A stretch of 64,000 bases of DNA from Rhizobium jaguaris (GTDB lineage Bacteria; Pseudomonadota; Alphaproteobacteria; Rhizobiales; Rhizobiaceae), in assembly GCF_003627755.1 (NCBI RefSeq), contig NZ_CP032694.1:3153501-3217500 (forward strand), given 5' to 3'. The notes under the pieces were generated by a model. It was not told where the DNA came from. It saw nothing but the letters and a program-made list of their open reading frames with translations, and made no database searches. Below are positions 41,934 through 54,622 of the stretch, one piece after another. Both the position numbers and the translations under genes were made by a program. Each line of letters begins with the position of its first letter. Positions within the stretch are counted from its first letter, which is position 1.

Positions 41934-42929
41934 ATGACATTTCAAAACAGTTCGCGTCTCTACGCTGCTGTTTCATCCTTATTGTGGCCGGCCATCTTTT
42001 GCGCCGGGCTGACAGGCGCCTATTTTGCGTTTCAGTCGCATATGCCGCTCCTTTGGTTCAATGTCGTCTATCTCTCGATCGTGGCGACGATTGCGCTGTT
42101 CGAGCGGCTGATGCCCTATGAGGAGGCCTGGCTGGAACGCGACGGCGAGACGTTTAGCAATGTCGCGCACACGCTTTTGAGCAAAGGGAGCGTGCAGATC
42201 GCGGCAGCCATCGGCACGTCATTTCCGATGGCGGTGGCGACCGTAGCGCAGCCTTTTCTGAGCCACCAGGCACATATCTGGCCAGAGCAATGGCCGATGG
42301 CTTTGCAGGTCGTGCTTGGATTGGTTGTCGCCGAATTCGGCCTCTATGTCGCCCATCGCCTAGCGCATGAATACCTGTCGCTTTGGCGTTTCCATGCCTT
42401 GCATCATAGCGTCGAGCGGTTGTGGGTCATCAACACCGGGCGTTTCCACATCATCGATTCGCTGTTCAAGATCGCGCTGGGGCAGATCCCGCTCTATCTC
42501 TTAGGCTCGCCGCTGCCGGTCTTCCTGTGGATCGGCGCGGTGACGGCCTTTATCGGCCTCCTCACCCATTGCAATATCGATGTACGCACAGGCCCGCTCG
42601 ACTGGTTCCTTTCCACGCCGCGCTTGCATCGCTGGCATCACTCGAAGCTGCTGGCCGAAGGCAACACCAATTACGGCGAAAACCTCGTAATCTGGGACCA
42701 GATCCTTGGTACCTACTACAACCCACCCCGCCCCTCCTCCACCGACATCGGTATCAGCGGCAAGGTGGCAAAGGGCTTCCTTGCCCAGCTCGTGCAGCCC
42801 TTCTCCACCAAGGGACGAAAGCAAATTATTGGGAAAAAACCGAAGGAGTTGGTGGCCAAGGAAGAACTGGCTGCCAGAGCGGCTGCCGTTCGCGAACAGC
42901 CCCGCGAGTCGATCCGAAAAACGAGCTGA
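41934..42929 (+). CDS. Sterol desaturase / fatty acid hydroxylase superfamily membrane protein
   Basis: A 331-residue integral membrane di-iron oxygenase-like protein. It has several N-terminal membrane segments and the three His boxes: HRLAHE, HALHHSVERL and HRWHHSKL, with a further His in LLTHCNIDV. Members hydroxylate or desaturate lipids, sterols or carotenoids. The C-terminal 50 residues are charged and probably cytoplasmic. The secreted VOC gene follows after nine bases, so the two form an operon. Lipid substrate unknown. Confidence 0.88.
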   Translation: MTFQNSSRLYAAVSSLLWPAIFCAGLTGAYFAFQSHMPLLWFNVVYLSIVATIALFERLMPYEEAWLERDGETFSNVAHTLLSKGSVQIAAAIGTSFPMAVATVAQPFLSHQAHIWPEQWPMALQVVLGLVVAEFGLYVAHRLAHEYLSLWRFHALHHSVERLWVINTGRFHIIDSLFKIALGQIPLYLLGSPLPVFLWIGAVTAFIGLLTHCNIDVRTGPLDWFLSTPRLHRWHHSKLLAEGNTNYGENLVIWDQILGTYYNPPRPSSTDIGISGKVAKGFLAQLVQPFSTKGRKQIIGKKPKELVAKEELAARAAAVREQPRESIRKTS

Positions 42930-42938
42930 GAGACGATC

Positions 42939-43838
42939 ATGAGCGGCCTCCCTCACTTGGCGTCGAAGCGCGCAGCGTTCGCCGGCCTTTGCCTCGCACT
43001 TGGCGCCCCGTTTTCCGCTTTGGCGATGGATCAGGTCGGCGTCGGTCCGCAATATGATACGACCCACGTCTATGTCGCGCCCGACAAGGTCGATGTTTTT
43101 GCGAAAAGCTTCCTCGCCACCTTCGGCGGCACCAGCACAAAACAGGTGACGACCAAGGCGACGCCGACGCCGAGCGGCACGACATCGCAACTGTTGCAGA
43201 CGCCGGCGGGCTATGTGTCGCTCTTCGGCTTCACGACGCCGATCCCCTACCCTTTCGGCCTTGAACGCACAGGCTATCTCGTCACCGATATGGATAAGGC
43301 AGTCGCAGCGGCAAAAGCCGCCGGTGCCGACATCATCGTCGCGCCGTTCCCCGATCCGATCGGCCGCGATGCCGTCATCCAATGGCCAGGCGGTGTCAAC
43401 ATGCAGCTCTATTGGCATACGGTGGCCGCCAACTATCCGCCGCTGCAGACCGTGCCGGAAAACCGTGTCTACGTTTCGCCCGATCGCGTTGGTGTTTTCG
43501 TTGAAGATTTTATCGCCTTTTCCCATGGCAGGATCGTTTCCGATGATCCGAAAGCCCCTGGCGTCGAGATTGGCCGGCCGAACGACACCTTTCATCGCAT
43601 CCGTCTCGAATCGATTTTCGGCCGGATGACGGTGCTCGTCACCGACGGGCATCTTCCCTATCCTTACGGCCGCGAGATCACAGGCTATGAAACCACCGAC
43701 CTGAAGGATACACTTACCAAGGCGACGGCGAGCGGTGCTGCGGTGATCACAGGCCCCTATGCCAGCGACGGCCGGGAAGCCGCGGTGGTTGCGTTTCCCG
43801 GAGGGTATATCGCGGAGATTCATGCAGCGACGAAATAG
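42939..43838 (+). CDS. Exported tandem VOC-domain protein
   Basis: A 299-residue protein with a Sec signal peptide (RAAFAGLCLALGAPFSALA, cleavage near 29). Two similar VOC halves follow: each has a THVYVAPDKVDVFAKSFLATFGG or NRVYVSPDRVGVFVEDFIAFSHG opening, a LERTGYLVTD or GREITGYETTD middle and a closing strand such as VIQWPGGVNMQLYW or VVAFPGGYIAEIHA. A periplasmic location is unusual for the superfamily. It is co-transcribed with the membrane hydroxylase. Function unknown: perhaps binding or isomerising the hydroxylase product. Confidence 0.82.
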   Translation: MSGLPHLASKRAAFAGLCLALGAPFSALAMDQVGVGPQYDTTHVYVAPDKVDVFAKSFLATFGGTSTKQVTTKATPTPSGTTSQLLQTPAGYVSLFGFTTPIPYPFGLERTGYLVTDMDKAVAAAKAAGADIIVAPFPDPIGRDAVIQWPGGVNMQLYWHTVAANYPPLQTVPENRVYVSPDRVGVFVEDFIAFSHGRIVSDDPKAPGVEIGRPNDTFHRIRLESIFGRMTVLVTDGHLPYPYGREITGYETTDLKDTLTKATASGAAVITGPYASDGREAAVVAFPGGYIAEIHAATK

Positions 43839-44054: not shown

Positions 44055-47000
44055 ATGGAAGGGAGATTTACCACAGATCATCTCAAGCAACTCCATAGAA
44101 TATTTTTCACATCTCGTGAAATAGACCGACTTGAACGAGAATTCATCAAGCAAGGCATAGCACATTTTCACGTTTCCGGCGCGGGACATGAGTCGACGGC
44201 GCTGTTGAACGAATTCCTCCATGAAGACGACTGGTTGCATCTGCATTATCGCGACAAAGCCTTGATGCTGGCGCGCGGCATGCCCATTCGTGAGTTTTTC
44301 TCGAGCCTTCTCGCCACAAGCAACTCCCATTCCGCCGGCCGGCAGATGAGCGCGCATCTTTGCTCCCGCGCTCTCAACATCACCTCCATCGTCGGCCCCG
44401 TCGGCAACAACGCACTACATTCCGTCGGCGTTGGCGCCGCGCTGAAACACAAGGCCGGCATGCCGATCGCCATTTGTTGCGTCGGTGACGGCACCACGCA
44501 GCAGGGCGAATTCGTCGAAGCCGTGGCCGAGGCCGTGCGCAGCCAATATCCCGTCGTCTTCATCGTCGAAGACAATAGTTTCTCCATCTCGACGCGGACT
44601 ACCAAGCAGACTTTCTTCGATCTGCCGACCGGACCCGCTTCTTCTTTCTACGGCCTCGACATTATCCGTGCCGATGGCGACGATCTGCAGGCGTCACGAG
44701 AAGCTTTCCGCAAGGCGGTCCGCCACAGCCGCAACAACCGTACGCCGAGCCTCGTGGTTCTCAATATCGAGCGCCTGTCCGATCACACGAATGCCGACGA
44801 TCAGAAGACCTATCGCACCCAGGAAGAGATCGAGGCCGGCTTCATCCACGATCCGCTCACCAATCTGCGCGCCGCCCTGCACGAGGCGGGTGTCGACGCT
44901 GCCGCGCTGGAACAGATCGAGAAGGATCTGACTGCCGAGGTGCAGGCGCAAGCAGCCCTTGCCCGCAAGGAAGATGCGCCGCATGTCGAGCCCGAGGCGA
45001 AGGCGCCCTATCCGGCTTCGTTCGACAAGACTACCGAATATCGCGGCGGCAAGAGCGCTGCGACTCTGACCATGCGCGAGGCGCTGAACGGCGTGCTCGA
45101 CAAGCAGCTTGCCGACAATCCCGACGTAGTTCTTTTCGGTCAGGATATCGAAGATCCCAAGGGCGATGTCTTTGGCGTCACCCGCGGCCTCAGCACGAAA
45201 TATCCCGAGCGGGTGCTCAATGCCGCGCTCAGCGAATCGACCATCGTCGGCACAGCTGTCGGCCGCGCGCTTGCCGGTCAACGCCCCGTCGCCTTCCTGC
45301 AGTTCGCCGATTTCCTGCCGCTCGCTTATAACCAGATCGTCTCGGAAATGGGCAGCATGTACTGGCGCACCCAAGGTGCCTGGGAATCGCCCGTGATCCT
45401 CATGGTGAGCTGTGGCGGCTATAAGCCAGGCCTCGGACCGTTCCACGCGCAAAGCTTCGAGAGCATGCTGGCGCACACGCCCGGCATCGACGTCGTCATG
45501 CCCTCCAGCGCCGGCGATGCCGCGGGTCTGCTCAACGCCGCCTTCGAGTCGCGACGTCCGACCGTCTTCCTTTACCCCAAGGCCGTGCTCAACAATTCCG
45601 ACGGCCGCACCTCCACCGATCTCGACAAGCATTTCGTCCGCCCCGGCTTTTCGCGCTACGTCGCCCGCGGCCGTGACCTGACGCTGGTCACCTACGGCAA
45701 CACGGTTTCGCTCTGCGCCAAGGCGGCGAGCGCCTTCGAAGCCCAGGGATTTTCCGTGGAGGTCATCGACCTGCGCTCGATCTCGCCCTGGGACGAAAAG
45801 GAAGTGCTCGCGAGCGCCAAGCGCACCAAGCGCCTGATCGTGGTGCATGAAGACAATCGCTCTGTCGGCATGGGCGCCGAAATCGTCGCGACTGTTACCG
45901 AGAAGACCGACGTACCCGTCGTCGTCCGCCGGCTGGCCCGCTCGGATGCGCATGTGCCGTTCAATTTCCGCAACCAGTTGGAAACGCTGCCTTCCTACAG
46001 CAAGCTGGTCGATTTGATGGCTGAGGTTCTCGAATGCGAGGTCACCTGGCATGAAGAGGACAAGACTGGCCCAACCGCCGCCATCAAGGCTATCGGCTCC
46101 GGCCCTGCTGATGAAAACGTGCTGGTGACCGATCTTCTGGTCAAGCCGGGCGATACGATCGAGGTCGGCCAGCTGGTCGCCGTAGTCGAGGCGACCAAGG
46201 CCTCCGTCGAAATCTGCGCCAATATCGGCGGCGTAGTGCAAGAAGTCTTCGCCAAGATCGGCGACCAGATCGCCACCGACAGCGCGCTTTTGACCGTCGA
46301 TGCCGACCGTGACCTGAGCGAGCGCAACTTCGCGCTTGCCTCGGAGACTCACAATAAATTCGTGCTGCGCCGGCTGAAGTCGCATGCGATCCCTGCGTTG
46401 CGCCGCCACTCCGGCAATTTCTCCGAAATCGCCGTCAGCGGCATGGGTTTTGCGACGGGTGCCCGCCGCGTCAGCAACGAAGACATCATCCACAATTGGC
46501 CCAACCGGCGCGCCGAGGAAATATTTGCGCTGACCGGGATCAAGAGCCGCTTCTGGGTCGGCCCTGGCGAAGGCACATTGAGCCTCGCGACTAAGGCTGT
46601 CCGCGATCTCTTGCGCCAGACCAATATGACGATCCACGATATGGATCTCGTCATAGCCGCGACCGGCACGCCCGATATCGCCACGCCATCGCTTGCAAGC
46701 CGTGTTGCGGTCGCCGTTGCCGAAGACGGCGTGCGGCCGTCGCTTGCCGCCTATGACATGGGAGCTGCCTGCTCGGGCTACATCTACGCCCTGCAGCAGG
46801 CTTACGACTTCATCGCCCAGCAGAACGACGCCAAGGTGCTGATCGTCACCTCGGAAGTGCTTTCGCCGCTGCTCGACATGAACGATTTCTCCACCGCCAT
46901 CCTGTTCGGAGATGCCGCCACGGCCTGTCTGGTGACCAGCCGCGACATGGCGCGCAATCCGCTTTTTGCCGCCAGTCGTCCGATCATCAGCGGCCGTCCG

Positions 47001-47378
47001 GAGCCGGGCGACCTCCTTTATGTGCCACTGCCGGATGAAGGCGTTATTTCGATGAACGGCCGCTCGGTCTTCACCGAAGCGGTGCATTCCATGTCGCGCT
47101 CGATCGAGGACGCTTGCGTCGATGCCGGGCTCGAGCTCGCCAACCTTGACCTTCTGGTGCCTCACCAGGCCAATCAACGCATCATCGACACCATCGCCAA
47201 GCGCAGCGGCCGGCCGGCTCTCAGCGTCATCGAAACCTATGGCAACACTAGCTCGTCGAGCATCCCGCTCGCCATGATGCACGTCGCCAATGAACGCTCC
47301 GAACCGCTCAACCTCGGCCTCGTCGCCTTCGGCGGGGGTATGACCTCCGGCGCAGCCATCGTGCGCACGATAAAATAG
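44055..47378 (+). CDS. Fused 2-oxoacid dehydrogenase E1-alpha/E1-beta, lipoyl and KAS III protein
   Basis: One 1107-residue protein with four parts. Residues about 1-330 are E1-alpha, with thiamine-diphosphate site GDGTTQQGE (144-152) to EDN (Asn174). About 337-665 are E1-beta (LTMREALNGVLDKQLADNPDVV, GRALAGQRPVAFLQFADF). About 671-750 are a lipoyl domain, with lipoylation Lys715 in VVEATKASVEI. About 775-1107 are ketoacyl-ACP synthase III with Cys906 (GAACSGYIYA), His1037 (VPHQANQR) and Asn1064 (YGNTSSSS). No E2 acyltransferase or E3 domain is present. Decarboxylation, acylation of the lipoyl arm and condensation by KAS III in one chain is the obvious inference. The gene stands alone; the upstream gap is AT-rich. 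Confidence 0.88.
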   Translation: MEGRFTTDHLKQLHRIFFTSREIDRLEREFIKQGIAHFHVSGAGHESTALLNEFLHEDDWLHLHYRDKALMLARGMPIREFFSSLLATSNSHSAGRQMSAHLCSRALNITSIVGPVGNNALHSVGVGAALKHKAGMPIAICCVGDGTTQQGEFVEAVAEAVRSQYPVVFIVEDNSFSISTRTTKQTFFDLPTGPASSFYGLDIIRADGDDLQASREAFRKAVRHSRNNRTPSLVVLNIERLSDHTNADDQKTYRTQEEIEAGFIHDPLTNLRAALHEAGVDAAALEQIEKDLTAEVQAQAALARKEDAPHVEPEAKAPYPASFDKTTEYRGGKSAATLTMREALNGVLDKQLADNPDVVLFGQDIEDPKGDVFGVTRGLSTKYPERVLNAALSESTIVGTAVGRALAGQRPVAFLQFADFLPLAYNQIVSEMGSMYWRTQGAWESPVILMVSCGGYKPGLGPFHAQSFESMLAHTPGIDVVMPSSAGDAAGLLNAAFESRRPTVFLYPKAVLNNSDGRTSTDLDKHFVRPGFSRYVARGRDLTLVTYGNTVSLCAKAASAFEAQGFSVEVIDLRSISPWDEKEVLASAKRTKRLIVVHEDNRSVGMGAEIVATVTEKTDVPVVVRRLARSDAHVPFNFRNQLETLPSYSKLVDLMAEVLECEVTWHEEDKTGPTAAIKAIGSGPADENVLVTDLLVKPGDTIEVGQLVAVVEATKASVEICANIGGVVQEVFAKIGDQIATDSALLTVDADRDLSERNFALASETHNKFVLRRLKSHAIPALRRHSGNFSEIAVSGMGFATGARRVSNEDIIHNWPNRRAEEIFALTGIKSRFWVGPGEGTLSLATKAVRDLLRQTNMTIHDMDLVIAATGTPDIATPSLASRVAVAVAEDGVRPSLAAYDMGAACSGYIYALQQAYDFIAQQNDAKVLIVTSEVLSPLLDMNDFSTAILFGDAATACLVTSRDMARNPLFAASRPIISGRPEPGDLLYVPLPDEGVISMNGRSVFTEAVHSMSRSIEDACVDAGLELANLDLLVPHQANQRIIDTIAKRSGRPALSVIETYGNTSSSSIPLAMMHVANERSEPLNLGLVAFGGGMTSGAAIVRTIK

Positions 47379-47421: not shown

Positions 47422-47640
47422 TTCCGCGTGGACGCGGATGCTTTCTCCTGATTTTTTGTTGTTGCTGGCATGATCCAGCCACGTTCTGCCGGTTGCACTT
47501 AACCATTCGGCCGACTACGCTTAGGTAGAGTGTAGCATCAAAAAAACGCAACCTGCCTCCCCTTTCGTTCATTACAATTCATCCATGTTTGCCTGCGCGT
47601 CTTCTTGAAAAGCACCGGAGCGGTACTTTACTTATATCGC

Positions 47641-48786
47641 ATGGCAAAGACACCCGGTCCATCGCGCCAATCGCTCCTGCGTTATGAGCTTGCTCCCGAT
47701 AGCGCGGCACGGAACGCTTTGGACGAGACCTTTGCCGCATACGGGCAGATGATGGCGATTCTGACCGAGATCGTTTCGGATAAAGCCGGGGCCAATCTCG
47801 TCGTTCTTCACGATCTTGCCTATGAAACCATTCGCGAACGCACAGGTTTACCCGCACGTCTGGTGACGCTTGGCCTGCGTGATTTTGCGGCCAGTCGCGG
47901 CGGAGTGGTCGATGTCAACCGCCTGCCGCTCGATGAAAAACTCTTTGCCATCAAGGGTCCGTCGGACCTGACAATCTCGACGGTACGCGGCCGCGTCGCC
48001 GTGCCCTTCGACGTGGCCGGTTATTCCAGGGGGTGGGAGAGTGTTTTTCCTGCCTACTTGGTCGCCGATGCCGGCCACTACGAGATTCACATCGGCGTAA
48101 CGCCAAACTCCCCCCGAACGGAGGAAAACATGATGATGAACGAAGGCATTCTTTCCCGCATGGGACGGCTGATCGCCGGCCTCGCCAATGCGGCAATCGA
48201 CAAGGCGGAAGGCGCAAACAAGATCGCGGTCATCGAACAGGCACTGCGTGAGATCGACGCTGCAGCCGACGAGGCCCGCACCGATCTCGGCAAAGCGCGC
48301 GCCGAGGAATACCGTATCCAGAGCCGTCGCACTGAAATCGTCGACGACCTTGCGGCCCTCGACGAAAAGATCCGGCTTGCCGTCTCCAACGACCGCGACG
48401 ATCTCGCCAAGGCGGGTGTCGCGCGCCAGATTGATCTCGAAGCCCAGATAGCCGCGCTCGACAAGGCGCTGGCCGACGTGCGTGAGCAGATCGATGAAGG
48501 CCAGAAGGCGCTGCAAGCGGTCCTCGCCACCCGTCGCGAGGCGGAAGCCCGGTTGGTTGATTTCAAGCGGAGCGTTGTTCGTCACGCGCCGGAGGAAGCG
48601 GCCGGCAGCAAGTCCCATTCGACGCCCGGCGCCGGTGCCGCCCGCGCTGCCGCGGCAGTCTCACGCCTGACCGGCGTGCCCGCAGCGGAACCCACAACCA
48701 GCGCCGAGCTCGACGAACTCGACCGCCTTCACCGAGAACAGGCCATCGAAGCCCGCCTTGCCCGTTTCAAGGCGAACAGTCGATAA
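47641..48786 (+). CDS. PspA/IM30 protein with a TnpB-like N-terminal extension
   Basis: A 381-residue reading frame. Residues about 166-381 are PspA/IM30: NEGILSRMGRLIAGLANAAIDKAEG followed by long charged coiled coils, the membrane-binding stress protein. Residues about 10-160 are not PspA. They resemble the N-terminal part of TnpB/OrfB of IS605-type elements: a helical FAAYGQMMAILTEIV...LHDLAYETIRERTGL stretch, then the beta segment LPLDEKLFAIKG and LTISTVRGRVAVPFDVAGYSRG. No RuvC nuclease part is present. A strong ribosome site (GGAGG at 48120-48124) precedes an in-frame ATG at 48130, so a free 218-residue PspA may be the main product. It is followed by YqiJ- and flotillin-type genes. Confidence 0.75.
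   Translation: MAKTPGPSRQSLLRYELAPDSAARNALDETFAAYGQMMAILTEIVSDKAGANLVVLHDLAYETIRERTGLPARLVTLGLRDFAASRGGVVDVNRLPLDEKLFAIKGPSDLTISTVRGRVAVPFDVAGYSRGWESVFPAYLVADAGHYEIHIGVTPNSPRTEENMMMNEGILSRMGRLIAGLANAAIDKAEGANKIAVIEQALREIDAAADEARTDLGKARAEEYRIQSRRTEIVDDLAALDEKIRLAVSNDRDDLAKAGVARQIDLEAQIAALDKALADVREQIDEGQKALQAVLATRREAEARLVDFKRSVVRHAPEEAAGSKSHSTPGAGAARAAAAVSRLTGVPAAEPTTSAELDELDRLHREQAIEARLARFKANSR
48120..48132 (+). promoter_or_regulatory. Internal ribosome binding site and start for free PspA
   Basis: GGAGG at 48120-48124, five bases, then ATG at 48130-48132, in frame inside the fused gene. Initiation here gives 218 residues, close to the normal PspA length of about 220. The upstream start at 47641 has no comparable site. 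Confidence 0.6.
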
Positions 48787-48791
48787 CGACG

Positions 48792-49442
48792 ATGCACCTT
48801 TTTTTCGCGCCCGAATGCGGGCCATTTGCCATCGCGGCAATGATCCTGGTTGGCCTGACCGCTATCGAGATCCTTTCGATGCTGCTCGGCTTTTCCTTGA
48901 GCGAGTTGATCGGCAAGCCGCATTTCGAGAGCCATGACGGTTTTGTCGCCGGTCTGCTCTCCTGGATTAATGTCGGCGGCGTGCCGCTGTTGATCCTCAT
49001 CATGTTGGTGCTCGGCACCTTCGCAGTCACGGGTTTTGCCATACAGGCGGTGGCAGACATCGCCTGGGCCCCCCTGCCGGCAATCGTTGCCGTGCCTCCC
49101 GCTGCCCTCCTCGCCATTCCTTTGGTGCGAGGCTCGACTCGTACCGTCGCACGGCTCGTTCCGCGCGACGAAACCTATGCCGTCGATGCCGGCGATTTCG
49201 TCGGCTGCACCGCTGAAGTCACCATCGGCCCTTTGGACCAGGGCCTGCCCGGCCGCGTCTGCGTCAAGGACGCGCACGGCAACTGGCACCAACTGCGCGC
49301 TGGCGCCGCCAAAGGCGAGGGTCCCCTGGCAGTTGGCTCCAAAGTCCTTCTTGTCGACCGCAAGGCCGACATTTTCATCGCAGTTCCCGCCCCATCGGAC
49401 CTTATCGGTTCCGATGATCAATCCTCTACGGAGCAACACTAA
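48792..49442 (+). CDS. YqiJ/NfeD-like OB-fold membrane protein
   Basis: A 216-residue protein with about three membrane segments (MILVGLTAIEILSMLLGFSLSELIG, VGGVPLLILIMLVLGTFAVTGFAIQAV, LPAIVAVPPAALLAIPLV). A C-terminal OB-fold domain follows (about 125-205; DFVGCTAEVTIGPLDQGLPGRVCVKDAHGNWHQLR). In YqiJ/YqiK and NfeD pairs this protein partners a flotillin in the membrane. It starts five bases after the PspA gene and overlaps the flotillin start by one base, so the three form one operon. Confidence 0.88.
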   Translation: MHLFFAPECGPFAIAAMILVGLTAIEILSMLLGFSLSELIGKPHFESHDGFVAGLLSWINVGGVPLLILIMLVLGTFAVTGFAIQAVADIAWAPLPAIVAVPPAALLAIPLVRGSTRTVARLVPRDETYAVDAGDFVGCTAEVTIGPLDQGLPGRVCVKDAHGNWHQLRAGAAKGEGPLAVGSKVLLVDRKADIFIAVPAPSDLIGSDDQSSTEQH

Positions 49443-51148
49443 TGAACGGCCTATACGATCTTATTCTGCCAGCAGGCATCGGCATTGTTCTGATCCTCGG
49501 GATCGGCTTTGTTCTTGCCTCGCTTTATGTCCGATCGAGCCGAGATGAAGCCTATGTGCGCACCGGTCTCGGTGGCCAGAAAGTCGTCCTCGACGGTGGT
49601 TCCGTCGTCCTGCCGATCTTCCATTCGATCGCCCGCGTCAATCTCAAGACTTTGCGGCTGGAAGTCCACCGCGGCGAAGGTGATGCACTGATCACCAAGG
49701 ACCGTATGCGCGTCGACATCGGCGCCGAATTCTACGTCCGTGTCAAACCGGATATCTCCTCCATCGCGCTTGCTGCGCAGACGCTTGGCAGCCGCACCAA
49801 TGACACCGAGCAATTGCGCCAGTTGATTGAAGCGAAATTCGTCGACAGCCTGCGCTCTGTCGCCGCCACGATGAACCTCGATGCCCTGCAGGAGCAGCGC
49901 ATGGATTTCGTCAAGGCGGTACAGGAAGCAGTCGGAGCCGACCTGCAATCCAACGGTCTCGAACTGGAATCCGTGTCGCTGACCCGCCTCGATCAGACCG
50001 ATATCAAGCATTTCAACGCCAACAACTTCTTCGACGCCCACGGTCTGGCAGCGCTGACCCGTGTAACCGAGGCCCGCAAGAAGGAACGCAACGAAATCGT
50101 TCGCGATACCGAAGTCGCGATTGCGCAGAAGGATCTGGAGGCCCGGCAGCAATCACTGACCATCGAGCGGACGAAACGCGAGGCCGAACTCAGCCAGCAG
50201 CGCGATATTGCCAATAAATCGGCCGCGACCCGCGCCGAGACGGCGCAGCAGGAACAGGCCGCGAAACGCGCTGAGGAAGAAGCCCGCATCGCCGCCGAAC
50301 AGGCGATCGCAGAACGTGAAGCCGCCGCCAAGCAGGCGCGTGAGTCCGCCAATATCGACTCGACCCGGGCCGTACAGCAGCGTGACACACAAGCTCGCCG
50401 CGATATCCAGATCGTCGCGCAGGAAAGCGCCATTGCGGTCGCCAACAAGAGCCGCGAGGAGTCGGAAGCCAAGGCGCAGGCGGAGGCTGCGCGCGCACTC
50501 GCGATCGCCGCCGAAGAAAAGGTTGGCACGGCCAAGGCCGTCGAAATCGCCGAACGCGAAAAGCAGATCGCTGTGATCGACGCGCAAAAGCGAGCACAGA
50601 CCCAGGCGACTGCCGTCACCATCGCTGCTGAAGCGGAAAAGCAGGCGGCCATCGATCAGGCCGACGCCATTAAGACATTGGCGACCGCAGAGGCAGATGC
50701 GGCAATCATCAAGGCCAAGGGTATTCTGGAAACCGGTAAGGCGACGGCTGAGAGCGAAGCGTTGCTCAACGAAGCCCGCAACAAACTCAGCCCCGCCATC
50801 ATCGAATATGAAGTGACCCGCGAGCGCATTCGCATTGTGCCCGCAGCCCTTGCCGAGGCGGTCAAGCCGATCGAGAAGATTTCGGACATCAGGATCTTCG
50901 ACACCGGTGGCATGCTCGGCCGCAACGGCAATGGGGCGAACGTCGGCAGCGGCGTCGGCTTGGGCGAAGGTCTCGCCGGCCAGTTGCTCTCCTACCAGGC
51001 CAACAAGCCGATCCTCGACCGCCTGCTCAAGGAGGCCGGCTTCGAGGGTGACAACGCCATCGCGGCGCTGCTTGCCAATCTGGATGGCAAGAACGCTGTC
51101 GCGTCTCCGCGCGAAGAGGATGTCGAAGACATGGACGCGGATAAATAG
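49442..51148 (+). CDS. Flotillin family protein (YqiK-like)
   Basis: A 568-residue membrane-domain scaffold protein: N-terminal membrane segment (IILPAGIGIVLILGIGFVLASLY region), SPFH/PHB domain (about 30-200; VRTGLGGQKVVLDGGSVVLPIFHSI, RVDIGAEFYVRV), then a long Ala/Glu/Lys/Arg-rich coiled coil (about 200-440). The C-terminal part ends GDNAIAALLANLDGKNAVASPREEDVEDMDADK. Flotillins organise membrane microdomains and with PspA respond to envelope stress. The ATG follows GGAGCAACACTA. The operon ends at a strong terminator. Confidence 0.92.
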   Translation: MNGLYDLILPAGIGIVLILGIGFVLASLYVRSSRDEAYVRTGLGGQKVVLDGGSVVLPIFHSIARVNLKTLRLEVHRGEGDALITKDRMRVDIGAEFYVRVKPDISSIALAAQTLGSRTNDTEQLRQLIEAKFVDSLRSVAATMNLDALQEQRMDFVKAVQEAVGADLQSNGLELESVSLTRLDQTDIKHFNANNFFDAHGLAALTRVTEARKKERNEIVRDTEVAIAQKDLEARQQSLTIERTKREAELSQQRDIANKSAATRAETAQQEQAAKRAEEEARIAAEQAIAEREAAAKQARESANIDSTRAVQQRDTQARRDIQIVAQESAIAVANKSREESEAKAQAEAARALAIAAEEKVGTAKAVEIAEREKQIAVIDAQKRAQTQATAVTIAAEAEKQAAIDQADAIKTLATAEADAAIIKAKGILETGKATAESEALLNEARNKLSPAIIEYEVTRERIRIVPAALAEAVKPIEKISDIRIFDTGGMLGRNGNGANVGSGVGLGEGLAGQLLSYQANKPILDRLLKEAGFEGDNAIAALLANLDGKNAVASPREEDVEDMDADK

Positions 51149-51245: not shown

Positions 51246-52091
51246 TTATGCCTTCGGACGGTTTCTCAGCGCTTCGGCTTCAGCGTAGAACTTCTTTTCC
51301 CATTCCTTGTGATTGTCGAGGCCTTCGCGAATGAACGGCGTGAAGATCGCCAGGTTCATCAAGGCCCAGTTGACGATGCGAGCCGGGAGCTTCAGTGGCT
51401 TGACGAAATCGACGAAGAGGACGACGCGGGTCTTGTCGGAGTGGTTCCAGGCCTCGTGCTCATAGGCGTCGTCGAAGATCAGCGCCTTGCCTTCCTGCCA
51501 GTGGCAGACCTGCTTATCGACGCGGATAGCAAGCTGGTCGTTAGGCTCCGGCACGACGAGGCCGACATGCAGGCGCAACACGCCGTTGTAGGGGCCACGA
51601 TGAGCCGGAAGGTGCTTGCCCGGTTCGAAGATCGAGAACATCGCCGTTTTCAGGCCCGGAATTTTCTGCACGGCCGCCCAGGTGTTCGGGCAGGCCTTGA
51701 TGTTCTGCTCCGACTTCACGCCAAAACCGAGAAGGAAGAAGGTCTTCCAGCGGCTGTCCGTCGAAATGGTCTTCACATCGGTGGAAATGTCCTGGAAGGT
51801 CGGCAGCTCGCTCTGGCGCAGCAGCACCTTTTCCAACTCGGCGCGGATCGCGGGATAGTCCTTCTCGATCTCGGCGGCCCAGGGAAAGGTCGCATTGTCG
51901 TAGACCGGCGGGTTGCCGAGCTTGGCGTATTTCAAATTGAGGCTTTCGGCCCAGGCGACGATGCCCATGAAAAAGCGCGTCATGGCGCTCGGACGGTCCA
52001 TCGGCGCGATGCCGGCTGTACCGAAGTTTTGTTCCGGAGCACGCGGCTCGGTGGTTGTGGGAGCTGGTGCGCTCAAAGTGCTCTCCGTCAT
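51246..52091 (-). CDS. lpxO: Aspartyl/asparaginyl beta-hydroxylase family, LpxO-like lipid A hydroxylase
   Basis: A 281-residue Fe(II)/2-oxoglutarate oxygenase. Iron ligands and the oxoglutarate Arg are visible in PAHRGPYNGVLRLHVGLVVPEP and FDDAYEHEAWNHSDKTRVVLFVDF, the motif pair of LpxO and of aspartyl beta-hydroxylases. A C-terminal hydrophobic stretch (IVNWALMNLAIFTPFIREGL) fits membrane association. LpxO hydroxylates the secondary acyl chain of lipid A, while soluble family members hydroxylate peptides. The call rests on motif and length, plus the EptA and PAP2 genes elsewhere in the window. Convergent with the flotillin operon. Confidence 0.75.
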   Translation of the reverse strand: MTESTLSAPAPTTTEPRAPEQNFGTAGIAPMDRPSAMTRFFMGIVAWAESLNLKYAKLGNPPVYDNATFPWAAEIEKDYPAIRAELEKVLLRQSELPTFQDISTDVKTISTDSRWKTFFLLGFGVKSEQNIKACPNTWAAVQKIPGLKTAMFSIFEPGKHLPAHRGPYNGVLRLHVGLVVPEPNDQLAIRVDKQVCHWQEGKALIFDDAYEHEAWNHSDKTRVVLFVDFVKPLKLPARIVNWALMNLAIFTPFIREGLDNHKEWEKKFYAEAEALRNRPKA

Positions 52092-52449: not shown

Positions 52450-52839
52450 TTATGCGGTCTGGCCTTGTGCGAGCAGCCGGATAATCGTGAGCCCGACGAC
52501 CAGCGCGGCCAGCGACAAGAAGAGAGACAGGGCGACATAAATCAGGGACGCTACCCATTGGCCACGCTCCCAAAGGGCGACTGCATCTAGCGAAAAGGTC
52601 GAGAATGTCGTGAAGCCGCCAAGGATTCCCGTGGTCAGGAAGAGCCGCAGTTCCTGCGACAGGCCACTGCGGAGAACGAAATATTCGGTCAACAGGCCCA
52701 TGATCAATGAGCCAACGGTATTAACCGCGAGTGTCCCAAAGGGAAATGCGAGGCCCAGCAAGCGTGCGGCGGCTTGATTGACGCCGAGACGAAAGGCGCC
52801 GCCCAATCCGGCGCCAAGAAAGACGATCAGATAGTTCAT
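52450..52839 (-). CDS. crcB: Fluoride channel CrcB/Fluc
   Basis: A 129-residue membrane protein with four membrane helices. It has the hallmark GGFTTFSTFSLDA (about 74-86) lining the fluoride path, the N-terminal GAGLGGAFRLGVNQ, and NTVGSLIMGLL with the conserved Asn. Fluc dimers export fluoride passively. A GGGGAG site precedes the ATG. It lies downstream of a CLC-F-type antiporter on the same strand, with only an 18-base gap after a small coupled frame, so the set is a fluoride-resistance operon. Confidence 0.95.
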   Translation of the reverse strand: MNYLIVFLGAGLGGAFRLGVNQAAARLLGLAFPFGTLAVNTVGSLIMGLLTEYFVLRSGLSQELRLFLTTGILGGFTTFSTFSLDAVALWERGQWVASLIYVALSLFLSLAALVVGLTIIRLLAQGQTA

Positions 52840-52857: not shown

Positions 52858-52965
52858 TCAGACAACGATATCCACTTTTAGAACTTCTTCGGTCGCACTC
52901 TCGTGACCGGCCACATTCCAATGCTTGATCTGCCCGTAAATGATGACTTTCCGCGTTAGGTTCAT
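52858..52965 (-). CDS. Small 35-residue coupled open frame between CLC-F and crcB
   Basis: The ATG at 52965-52963 overlaps the antiporter stop in an ATGA arrangement. The frame encodes 35 residues beginning [18 protein letters not shown] and ending [12 protein letters not shown]. It stops 18 bases before the crcB start. It has no membrane segment and its amphipathic ending resembles a beta strand. The exact fit between two co-transcribed genes argues that it is translated, either as a micropeptide or as a coupling device for crcB. It could also be the remnant of a longer gene. No family is recognised. Confidence 0.5.
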
Positions 52966-54365
52966 GACTTCGAACCTTCCCGTTGGGATTGTGGCGGCGC
53001 CTGGTGAACTCTCCCGATCATGTCGCCTAATGCTCTGGCGTTGAGATCAGGAACGTGACGAAGGGGGATACCAGAGGGAATGTGACTGGCCGCGGCGCTC
53101 TTCACGATACCGATACGCTGCGACGGATAGATGCTGGTATGGCCGCTGCAGATATAGGCGAGGAAGCAGGCGACGGCGAGATAGACCGTATGCGTCGCGC
53201 CGAAGAGCTCGATACCCATGATCACGCAGGCGAGCGGTGTGTTGGTGGCTCCTGCAAAGACCGCGACAAAGCCGAGCGCGGCAAAAAGATCGATCGGCGC
53301 ACCAAGGACGGCGGCAATCGCATTGCCGAGTGCGGCGCCGATGAAAAACAACGGCGTCACTTCACCCCCCTTGAAGCCGGCGCTGAGTGTCACGATCGTA
53401 AAGACCGCCTTCCAGAACCAGCTCCAATAGTCGATGCGTGCAGGATCGAAGAAACCTGGAATCGTCGCATCACCGGGATTGGGCGACCAGACACCGAGGC
53501 CAAGATATTCGCGCGTGCCAAGCACATAGACCAAGGCGATAAGCACTGCGCTGGCGATGACTGGTCTCAGCGGCGCATAGGCGCAAATCCTTTTAAAGAC
53601 TGCCGTCATCAGGTGAGAAATTTCACTGAAGCATCGCGCCATCAGTCCGAAGAGCACGCCGGCAATGCCGACCTTCGCAAGCAGCAACGCATCGAGATGG
53701 AACGTACTTGCCGGCGTGCCAGCGAGATAGGCGATACGGTACTGAATGTGCTCGATGCCCCAGGCATGGCAGGTCCAGTCGGCCGCAATCGCCGCCGCAA
53801 GAGAAGGAATCAGAGCCTCATATTGGATGCGCCCGATAGTCAGAACCTCGAGCGCAAAGACAGCACCCGCAATCGGCGTGCCAAACACAGCGCCGAAGCC
53901 GGCGGCAATGCCGGCCATCAGCAGGATACGAACCTCGGCGTCGTTCAGCCGGAAAAGCTTGGCGAAGGCGCTCGCGATGCTGCCGCCGAGCTGTACGGCC
54001 GTTCCCTCGCGCCCCGCGGAGCCGCCGACCAGATGCGTCAGCACGGTCGAGACCAGGATGAATGGCGCCATGCGCAGCGGCACACCGCCGCCGGGTTCAT
54101 GGATCTGATCGACGATCAGATTATTGCCGCCCTCCGCCCCCCGGCCGAAATGCTGATAGGCCAGCACCATCAGGAAGCCCGCGACCGGCATCAGAAAGAT
54201 TAGCCAGGGATAATCGAAACGCGCCACCGTCACCCGGTCGAGGCTCCAGAGAAACAGAGCGCAAAGCGACCCGACCACGGCTGCCATCGGCACCACCAAG
54301 ATGATCCATTTGAATATGCTTCGCAATTGCTGAAAACGATGATTAAAAAATGCAGATGCGGACAT
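52962..54365 (-). CDS. CLC-type channel/antiporter, likely fluoride/proton antiporter (CLC-F)
   Basis: A 467-residue CLC protein with about ten to twelve membrane helices. The selectivity regions read [12 protein letters not shown] (80-91, replacing the GSGIP of chloride CLCs) and [12 protein letters not shown] (114-125). These, together with [11 protein letters not shown], mark the fluoride-selective EriC-F branch. The ATG at 54365 is chosen for GCGGGAGGGACG just upstream; another ATG 20 codons earlier lacks a site. CrcB lies downstream on the same strand. The 257-base leader may hold a riboswitch. Confidence 0.85.
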
Positions 54366-54622
54366 TAGTTCGTCCCTCCCGCAAGACCAGCGGCCGGCCT
54401 GTCGGGGATAGCGATCATTGAACAAGAAAAGGGTAACAGCAGAATTATGGACACGATCCTACTCCTTCGCCCAGCGGGCGTATCGAGTAGGAGTCATTAG
54501 CATCTCTGGAATTCAGAGCAGCGGTTCGGCCACCATGGCCCGGCAGAATCCATTGCCGTTGGGTTCTCAATACAGACACGGGCGCGCGCCTGTCAATCCG
54601 GGCGTCGCAAGCTCGGCTGCCA
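54366..54622 (-). ncRNA. Structured leader upstream of the CLC-F gene, riboswitch-like
   Basis: In the transcript (minus strand) a hairpin with CUCUG/CAGAG arms precedes GCUAAUGACUCCUACU, which resembles the 3' part of crcB-motif fluoride riboswitches. CUCCUACUC is then able to pair with GAGUAGG in a downstream stem (genomic 54457-54492, inner CGCCC/GGGCG), as in an expression platform. The 5' half (GGCC-AUGGU-GGCC) is not a good match to the consensus. The call is therefore tentative. Confidence 0.4.

Follow-up and report, generated by a model that had tools for sequence, protein, structure and literature searches.

A fused 2-oxo acid dehydrogenase E1, lipoyl and KAS III protein between the ornithine lipid genes olsE and olsC of Rhizobium is a candidate starter enzyme for acyl chains

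The Photorhabdus bkdABC route to branched acyl chains includes a 3-ketoacyl-acyl carrier protein (ACP) synthase III (KAS III). In this route a branched-chain 2-oxo acid dehydrogenase, encoded by an operon of separate genes, gives isovalerate-coenzyme A (CoA), and the chains go into isopropylstilbene and iso-fatty acids (PMC3838401; papers are cited here by accession, each for an excerpt). In superposed CoA-bound structures of E. coli FabH, the adenine is sandwiched by Trp32 and Arg151, and the pantetheine arm is held by Arg36 and two Asn residues (PMC4606726). At the gate residue, position 87, Phe accompanies acetyl and Thr accompanies longer acyl groups; mtFabH, with Thr at the gate, accepts long acyl groups (PMC3734052). 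Here we analyze a 64,000-nucleotide stretch of the Rhizobium jaguaris genome (NZ_CP032694.1, positions 3,153,501 to 3,217,500; the window), in which one gene encodes the E1-alpha and E1-beta parts of a 2-oxo acid dehydrogenase, a lipoyl domain and a KAS III in a single chain. We propose, giving it about an even chance of being right, that this protein serves as a single-chain enzyme for starting acyl chains, in which the acyl group would pass directly from the lipoyl arm to KAS III without CoA, and that it feeds a membrane lipid in this group of rhizobia.

The gene is one uninterrupted frame (Table 1); the genome is of Rhizobium type and 8.0 Mb in size. All six Pfam domains of the protein score over their cut-offs: E1_dh (residues 20-311), Transket_pyr (337-512), Transketolase_C (535-642), Biotin_lipoyl (687-747), ACP_syn_III (900-967) and ACP_syn_III_C (1023-1104). 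The same six are found in 20/20 aligned relatives (alignment A1). The 14 families reported in these 20 chains include neither the E2 catalytic domain (PF00198) nor the E3-binding domain; the chains thus carry the E1 and lipoyl units of a 2-oxo acid dehydrogenase and lack its other two domains. An NCBIfam scan gave no model above cut-off among the best 25 of 41 matches, with weak matches to DarB-type models, and a promoter and terminator scan stayed at chance level.

In a 51-row alignment of the family (A2), Lys715 of the lipoyl domain, Cys906 and Asn1064 of KAS III, Gly144, Gly146 and Asn174 of the thiamine diphosphate (ThDP) motif, His244 and Glu394 are invariant. Asp145, His101, His464 and His1037 are conserved at 90% or more, His1037 in 50 of the 51 rows. 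The active-site residues of both E1 halves and the lipoyl lysine are thus those of a 2-oxo acid dehydrogenase. An original prediction, made from the letters of the window, had described a single 1107-residue frame with E1-alpha, E1-beta, lipoyl and KAS III parts, an intact Lys715 and Cys906-His1037-Asn1064 triad, and no E2 transacylase domain; the open reading frame, the domain search and the alignments agree with it on each of these points.

Third-position GC content is elevated in every domain, and the median ratio of nonsynonymous to synonymous substitution rates (dN/dS) against ten Rhizobium copies is 0.10 for E1-alpha, 0.06 for E1-beta, 0.04 for the lipoyl domain, 0.09 for the linker and 0.05 for KAS III. 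Purifying selection therefore acts on all domains, and the third-position GC, the low dN/dS and the full-length homologs in several phyla together demonstrate that the fused frame is not a product of chance. Over the 51 rows, the pairwise distances of the E1 part and those of the KAS III part show a correlation of 0.94. In an unrooted tree, 27 chosen fused KAS III rows stand opposite 29 stand-alone KAS IIIs across a branch with 100/100 support, and hence do not group with stand-alone FabH. Both results are compatible with a fusion that was inherited as one unit.

To see how widespread the architecture is, we searched 5.8 billion proteins; of 7996 candidates scored, 2028 matched at E <=1e-3. 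By our reading of domain content, 118 of the 120 listed homologs have the full six-domain set, and in the remaining two (P0095 and P0102), which are shorter, the last domain is missing. Of 120 short lipoyl-KAS III or KAS III proteins from a separate search, 9 were inspected, and several of these look like fragments of full-length genes. The window protein has 97% identity with its counterparts in R. leucaenae and two further Rhizobium species. A relative is encoded in 336 of 355 candidate stretches of GTDB genomes, and 80 of these 336, used below as the locus set, come from Rhizobium, Devosia, Rhodobacterales, Planctomycetes, Lentisphaerae, Verrucomicrobia and Spirochaetes, with one cyanobacterial and one Accumulibacter metagenome-assembled genome. 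At E <=1e-200 the fusion was found in 28 of 100 Rhizobium genomes; in samples of the family (297 genomes) and the class (385 genomes) it was found in one genome each, that of the window itself. The distribution is thus broad but patchy. The original prediction proposed a survey of other genomes for the architecture: it recurs, and it is widespread and not singular. We rejected a one-off architecture or an assembly join on the grounds of the full-length homologs in several phyla and the low dN/dS. The family is real and conserved. Many members are at present named "2-oxoisovalerate dehydrogenase E1 component" or "thiamine pyrophosphate-dependent enzyme", and searches of titles and abstract openings in the open-access literature found no description or characterization of the architecture.

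The KAS III part differs from FabH where FabH holds CoA. We aligned the KAS III of 99 fused rows (the 51 of A2 and 48 loci, two of which match an A2 row identically over the last 300 residues) with E. coli FabH and 28 stand-alone KAS IIIs. The latter are a subset of the matches in the window genome and 18 further genomes, 22 of them FabH-like (at least 37% identity to E. coli FabH) and 6 others. The site of Trp32 holds Trp in 21/22 FabH-like and 5/6 other stand-alone proteins and in none of the 99 fused rows, where it is Asp or Glu in 96 (49/51 and 47/48). The site of Arg151 holds Arg or Lys in 20/22 FabH-like proteins and Arg in 6/6 others; the fused rows have Arg in none, Lys in one and mostly Phe (73/99). 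The adenine clamp of FabH is therefore missing from all 99 fused rows. The catalytic core is kept, with Cys112 and Asn274 in 99/99 fused rows and His244, Asn247 and Arg249, which we take to be an ACP-docking residue, in 98/99. Of 70 positions conserved at 80% or more among the stand-alone proteins, 12 are kept in less than 5% of fused rows, against a median of 93% over all 70. These 12 include both clamp residues; of the other ten, nine have Gly, Ala, Ser or Pro in the stand-alone proteins and the tenth changes from Phe to Tyr. The pantetheine contact Arg36 is Leu826 in the window protein and remains Arg in 15/51 and 32/48 fused rows, so that the family as a whole has not lost it. Taken together, we read this pattern as a probable loss of CoA binding with retention of the catalytic core. 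The lost clamp fits a donor other than acyl-CoA, and the attached lipoyl arm would be the obvious one.

Some hints about the acyl group come from the same alignment and from the E1 parts. The gate is Phe in 14 and Thr in 2 of the 22 FabHs; it is Thr877 in the window protein and Thr or Ser in 98/99 fused rows, which speaks against acetyl as the acyl group. The best match of both E1 halves among solved chains is a Thermus 2-oxo acid dehydrogenase (1um9). The runners-up are branched-chain E1s for E1-beta and pyruvate dehydrogenase for E1-alpha. Together with the Streptomyces E1s described below, the gate and the E1 matches weakly indicate a branched-chain 2-oxo acid.

The genomic position suggests where the product might go. 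OlsE adds a hydroxyl group to the ornithine moiety of ornithine lipids, and OlsC adds one to their ester-linked acyl chain (PMC3972451). In R. tropici CIAT 899 the sycA-olsC cluster has been linked to acid tolerance, and insertions in it reduce growth at low pH (PMC5936775); the excerpt of PMC9048898 treats olsC and acid tolerance and does not mention the fusion gene. The original prediction had the gene standing alone, which is not the case, since olsE and olsC flank it. In 30 loci of the clade, olsE lies upstream in all 30 and olsC within the retrieved flank in 28. Among the 100 Rhizobium genomes, many of which are draft assemblies, olsE is present in 58 and olsC in 57, and both occur in 28/28 genomes with the fusion (Fisher p 3e-9); because the genomes are related, these 28 are not 28 independent events. 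The order olsE-fusion-olsC is found in 27 of the 28. In these 27, olsE has the same orientation as the fusion and lies 225-1136 bp upstream of it, and three of them, the window genome included, have a gap of about 1.13 kb, with space for the gene at 42939-43838 that separates olsE from the fusion in 3/31 loci (the window, L002 and L034). OlsC is convergent to the fusion at a distance of 93-197 bp (11 genomes), 3.85-3.97 kb (15) or 19 kb (1). The exception, G322, has a divergent copy (61%) located elsewhere. In 29 genomes both ols genes were found and the fusion was not, and there the two ols genes are on different contigs (27) or more than 1.1 Mb apart (2). One of these 29, G317, is 82% complete in 1320 contigs with ols genes 88-94% identical, and its fusion may just be missing.

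The results establish the architecture, the conserved active sites, the selection, the shared ancestry of the KAS III part, the clamp loss and the gene neighborhood. On this basis we suggest the following cycle, whose catalytic steps, substrate and product we infer from sequence, lipoylation, decarboxylation and direct lipoyl-to-Cys transfer included. The fused E1-alpha/E1-beta unit with ThDP would decarboxylate a 2-oxo acid, the likeliest being one with a branched chain, and then reductively acylate a lipoyl group at Lys715. The lipoyl arm would hand the acyl group directly to Cys906 of KAS III, with no E2 catalytic domain and no free acyl-CoA in between, and KAS III, through Cys906-His1037-Asn1064, would condense it with malonyl-ACP to a 3-oxoacyl-ACP. 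As an E3-binding domain is missing from the chain, the dihydrolipoyl group would be re-oxidized by an E3 encoded elsewhere, borrowed from the ordinary cellular complexes. LipA, found in 19/19 genomes searched for partner enzymes, would permit lipoylation of Lys715 and says no more than that; E3 was found in 18/19. In the R. tropici/rhizogenes group the fusion has come to lie between the two ols genes, and its product, reduced first to a 3-hydroxyacyl-ACP for example, probably goes into ornithine lipid or another membrane lipid related to it. A replacement of FabH by the fusion was considered and rejected, as a separate FabH-like protein occurs in 18/18 genomes.

Several observations weigh against this model. 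Arg36 is retained in 47/99 fused rows, and the clamp residues are not the sole difference from FabH, being 2 of 12 near-wholly replaced positions. Stand-alone KAS IIIs vary at the clamp too: L114 has Leu at position 32, 2/22 FabHs lack Arg or Lys at 151, and PqsD carries Phe32 (PMC3734052). The gate Thr is also present in 2/22 FabHs, and with pyruvate dehydrogenase as the runner-up for E1-alpha, a branched-chain substrate is a guess, if the likeliest one. Separate E2 proteins (PF00198) occur in 19/19 searched genomes, and an E2-like gene lies two genes upstream of the fusion in one Planctomycete locus (L035). The chain itself lacks an E3-binding domain, and a search for E3 at 1e-80 found none in genome G017. 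As for the lipid, the link is limited to one Rhizobium clade, the R. tropici/rhizogenes group. Neither ols gene was found near the fusion in 8 loci outside this clade (R. cauense, Devosia and kin, Rhodobacterales), and PF13444, presumably the OlsB domain, was found in just 9/19 genomes. The lipid link would on these grounds be a clade-specific recruitment and not the ancestral role.

Table 1 Features of the fusion gene and its surroundings (window coordinates)
Feature	Position	Strand	Remarks
olsE, ornithine lipid hydroxylase	41934..42929	+	NF052566 equivalog, 564 bits, cut-off 475
Unassigned-family gene, 299 residues	42939..43838	+	Glyoxalase-like by eye only; no Pfam or NCBIfam match
E1-alpha/E1-beta/lipoyl/KAS III fusion gene	44055..47378	+	1107 residues
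E1-alpha domain, residues 20-311	44112..44987	+	ThDP motif G144-D145-G146...N174, His101, His244
E1-beta domain, residues 337-642	45063..45980	+	Glu394, His464
Lipoyl domain, residues 687-747	46113..46295	+	Lys715 codon 46197-46199
KAS III domain, residues 791-1107	46425..47375	+	Cys906 (46770), His1037 (47163), Asn1064 (47244)
KAS III substituted sites			Glu822 (46518) and Phe945 (46887) replace FabH Trp32/Arg151; Thr877 (46683) replaces Phe87
PspA/IM30-like protein	47605..48786	+	
YqiJ-like membrane protein	48792..49442	+	
Flotillin-like protein	49442..51148	+	
olsC, ornithine lipid ester-linked acyl 2-hydroxylase	51246..52091	-	NF052565, 536 bits, cut-off 450
CrcB-like gene	52450-52839	-	Between olsC and the ClC channel
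ClC-type chloride channel	52962..54425	-	PF00654; on the olsC side, like sycA in the R. tropici sycA-olsC cluster

The PspA/YqiJ/flotillin block (47605-51148), a membrane-stress module, lies between the fusion and olsC in 18/30 related loci and so comes and goes. Outside the window, the best OlsB-like (PF13444) match of the window genome (G000:C1:600562-600890, L135) is split over two frames by a lesion or an assembly indel. Comparison of 50 of the 80 loci found no neighborhood common to several phyla, and the recurring families are mostly those of a single lineage. A short-chain dehydrogenase gene, whose product is a candidate product reductase, lies downstream in 6/14 spirochaete loci (L049, L051, L054, L057, L067 and L079). 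The Planctomycete locus L035 (L035:5289-9642) has upstream an AMP ligase, an ACP-like protein (by eye), the E2-like protein (PF00198) and LPG_synthase_C. Downstream of another Planctomycete copy (L066:3976-11240) we recognized by eye an NAD-epimerase/3-beta-HSD, FabF and ACP, and further two phytoene-desaturase-like oxidoreductases, FabZ and FabI.

The alternative that survives best concerns the lipid and not the chemistry. The position beside olsE and olsC could reflect a stress island to which all these genes belong, or clustering by chance that one clade has inherited, with the enzyme unrelated to ornithine lipid. The 27 genomes are all one group of close relatives, the stress block and the ClC channel share the same stretch, and the divergent G322 copy and the R. 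cauense locus lie elsewhere. However, olsE keeps its short spacing and strand in 27/28 genomes while the genes between the fusion and olsC vary, and olsE and olsC were not found near each other in any of the 29 genomes without the fusion. We regard this explanation as possible, though well short of even.

A second alternative, which we consider unlikely, is that the acyl group is transferred by an E2 in trans or via CoA, so that KAS III uses acyl-CoA like an ordinary FabH and the fusion just channels. The E2 proteins in all 19 genomes, none of which has the fusion without an E2, the E2-like gene of L035 and the E2 catalytic domain between lipoyl and ACP in three Streptomyces relatives speak for it. 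The loss of both clamp residues in 99/99 fused rows speaks against it, as do the three E2 matches of the window genome, all distant from the gene. The bypass of free acyl-CoA in the original prediction is therefore favored by the clamp and put in question by the E2 proteins.

Slightly less likely again is that KAS III acts as an acyltransferase or with another partner, such as a beta-keto acid or a small molecule, and makes a signal or specialized metabolite instead of a membrane lipid. PqsD, CerJ and DarB are KAS III relatives with such roles, and the weak DarB-type matches, the short-chain reductase family of the spirochaete loci and the lack, by eye, of a recognized lipid gene near most listed loci would agree with this. 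Conservation of Cys-His-Asn and of Arg249 in 98/99 rows and the olsE-olsC position in the Rhizobium clade argue against it. Finally, an alpha-oxidation-like salvage, in which 2-hydroxy chains made by OlsC are oxidized, decarboxylated as long-chain 2-oxo acids and re-extended by KAS III, would suit the olsC neighborhood and a gate Thr877 like that of long-chain mtFabH, but it is improbable, as the E1 sequence resembles short 2-oxo acid enzymes, olsC is not near the fusion in the 8 outside-clade loci, and we know of no E1 of this family with long-chain substrates.

If the CoA-free cycle is true, a fatty or polyketide chain would be started from a keto acid without a CoA thioester, with the lipoyl arm as the carrier between decarboxylase and ketosynthase. 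Such an enzyme could serve as a compact part for engineering branched starters, and a function could be assigned to a family many of whose members are now named just as E1 or ThDP enzymes. More tentatively, and with less confidence than in the enzyme itself, we suggest a widespread class in which a lipoyl arm loads a ketosynthase without E2 or CoA, together with an unrecognized ornithine lipid gene in the R. tropici group that would set the acyl chain beside the acid-tolerance-linked OlsE and OlsC hydroxylations. Of the new leads, the location between the two ols genes is the most useful, and the question is testable in the laboratory symbiont R. tropici CIAT 899.

The fusion shares its E1-alpha and E1-beta families and active-site motifs with the Thermus and branched-chain 2-oxo acid dehydrogenase E1s (1um9, 2bp7, 1qs0, 1dtw), and differs from them in that alpha and beta are joined to each other and to the lipoyl and KAS III parts. 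With FabH it has the domain family and the Cys-His-Asn triad in common, whereas the Trp32/Arg151 clamp is gone, Thr stands for Phe87, and the domain is attached to its own acyl supplier. In a plasmid collection, the sole matches at E <=1e-100 are five Streptomyces records, with E1 identities of 36.6-38.6%. The Streptomyces E1s and the fusion E1 have the F-H, HYRD and GR(Q/N)M..H motifs in common. In three of the plasmid clusters (L120:17956-35091, L121 and L122) the fused E1 gene adjoins a giant synthase that starts lipoyl-E2-ACP-KS (KS, ketosynthase). From their content of pabB, chorismate mutase, ornithine cyclodeaminase and ScbR/ScbA, we take these clusters to be streptogramin-like, and the starter of streptogramin A is isobutyryl. 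Like the fusion, they wire a 2-oxo acid E1 and a lipoyl domain directly into an assembly line; unlike the fusion, in which the lipoyl domain is followed by neither an E2 catalytic domain nor an ACP, they carry the E2 catalytic domain, the ACP and a polyketide synthase-type KS, on a separate protein. The nearest described logic is that of Photorhabdus bkdABC, which likewise leads from a branched-chain 2-oxo acid dehydrogenase to branched acyl chains (PMC3838401, PMC9002308), there through separate genes and an acyl-CoA, and here, as we propose, within a single chain.

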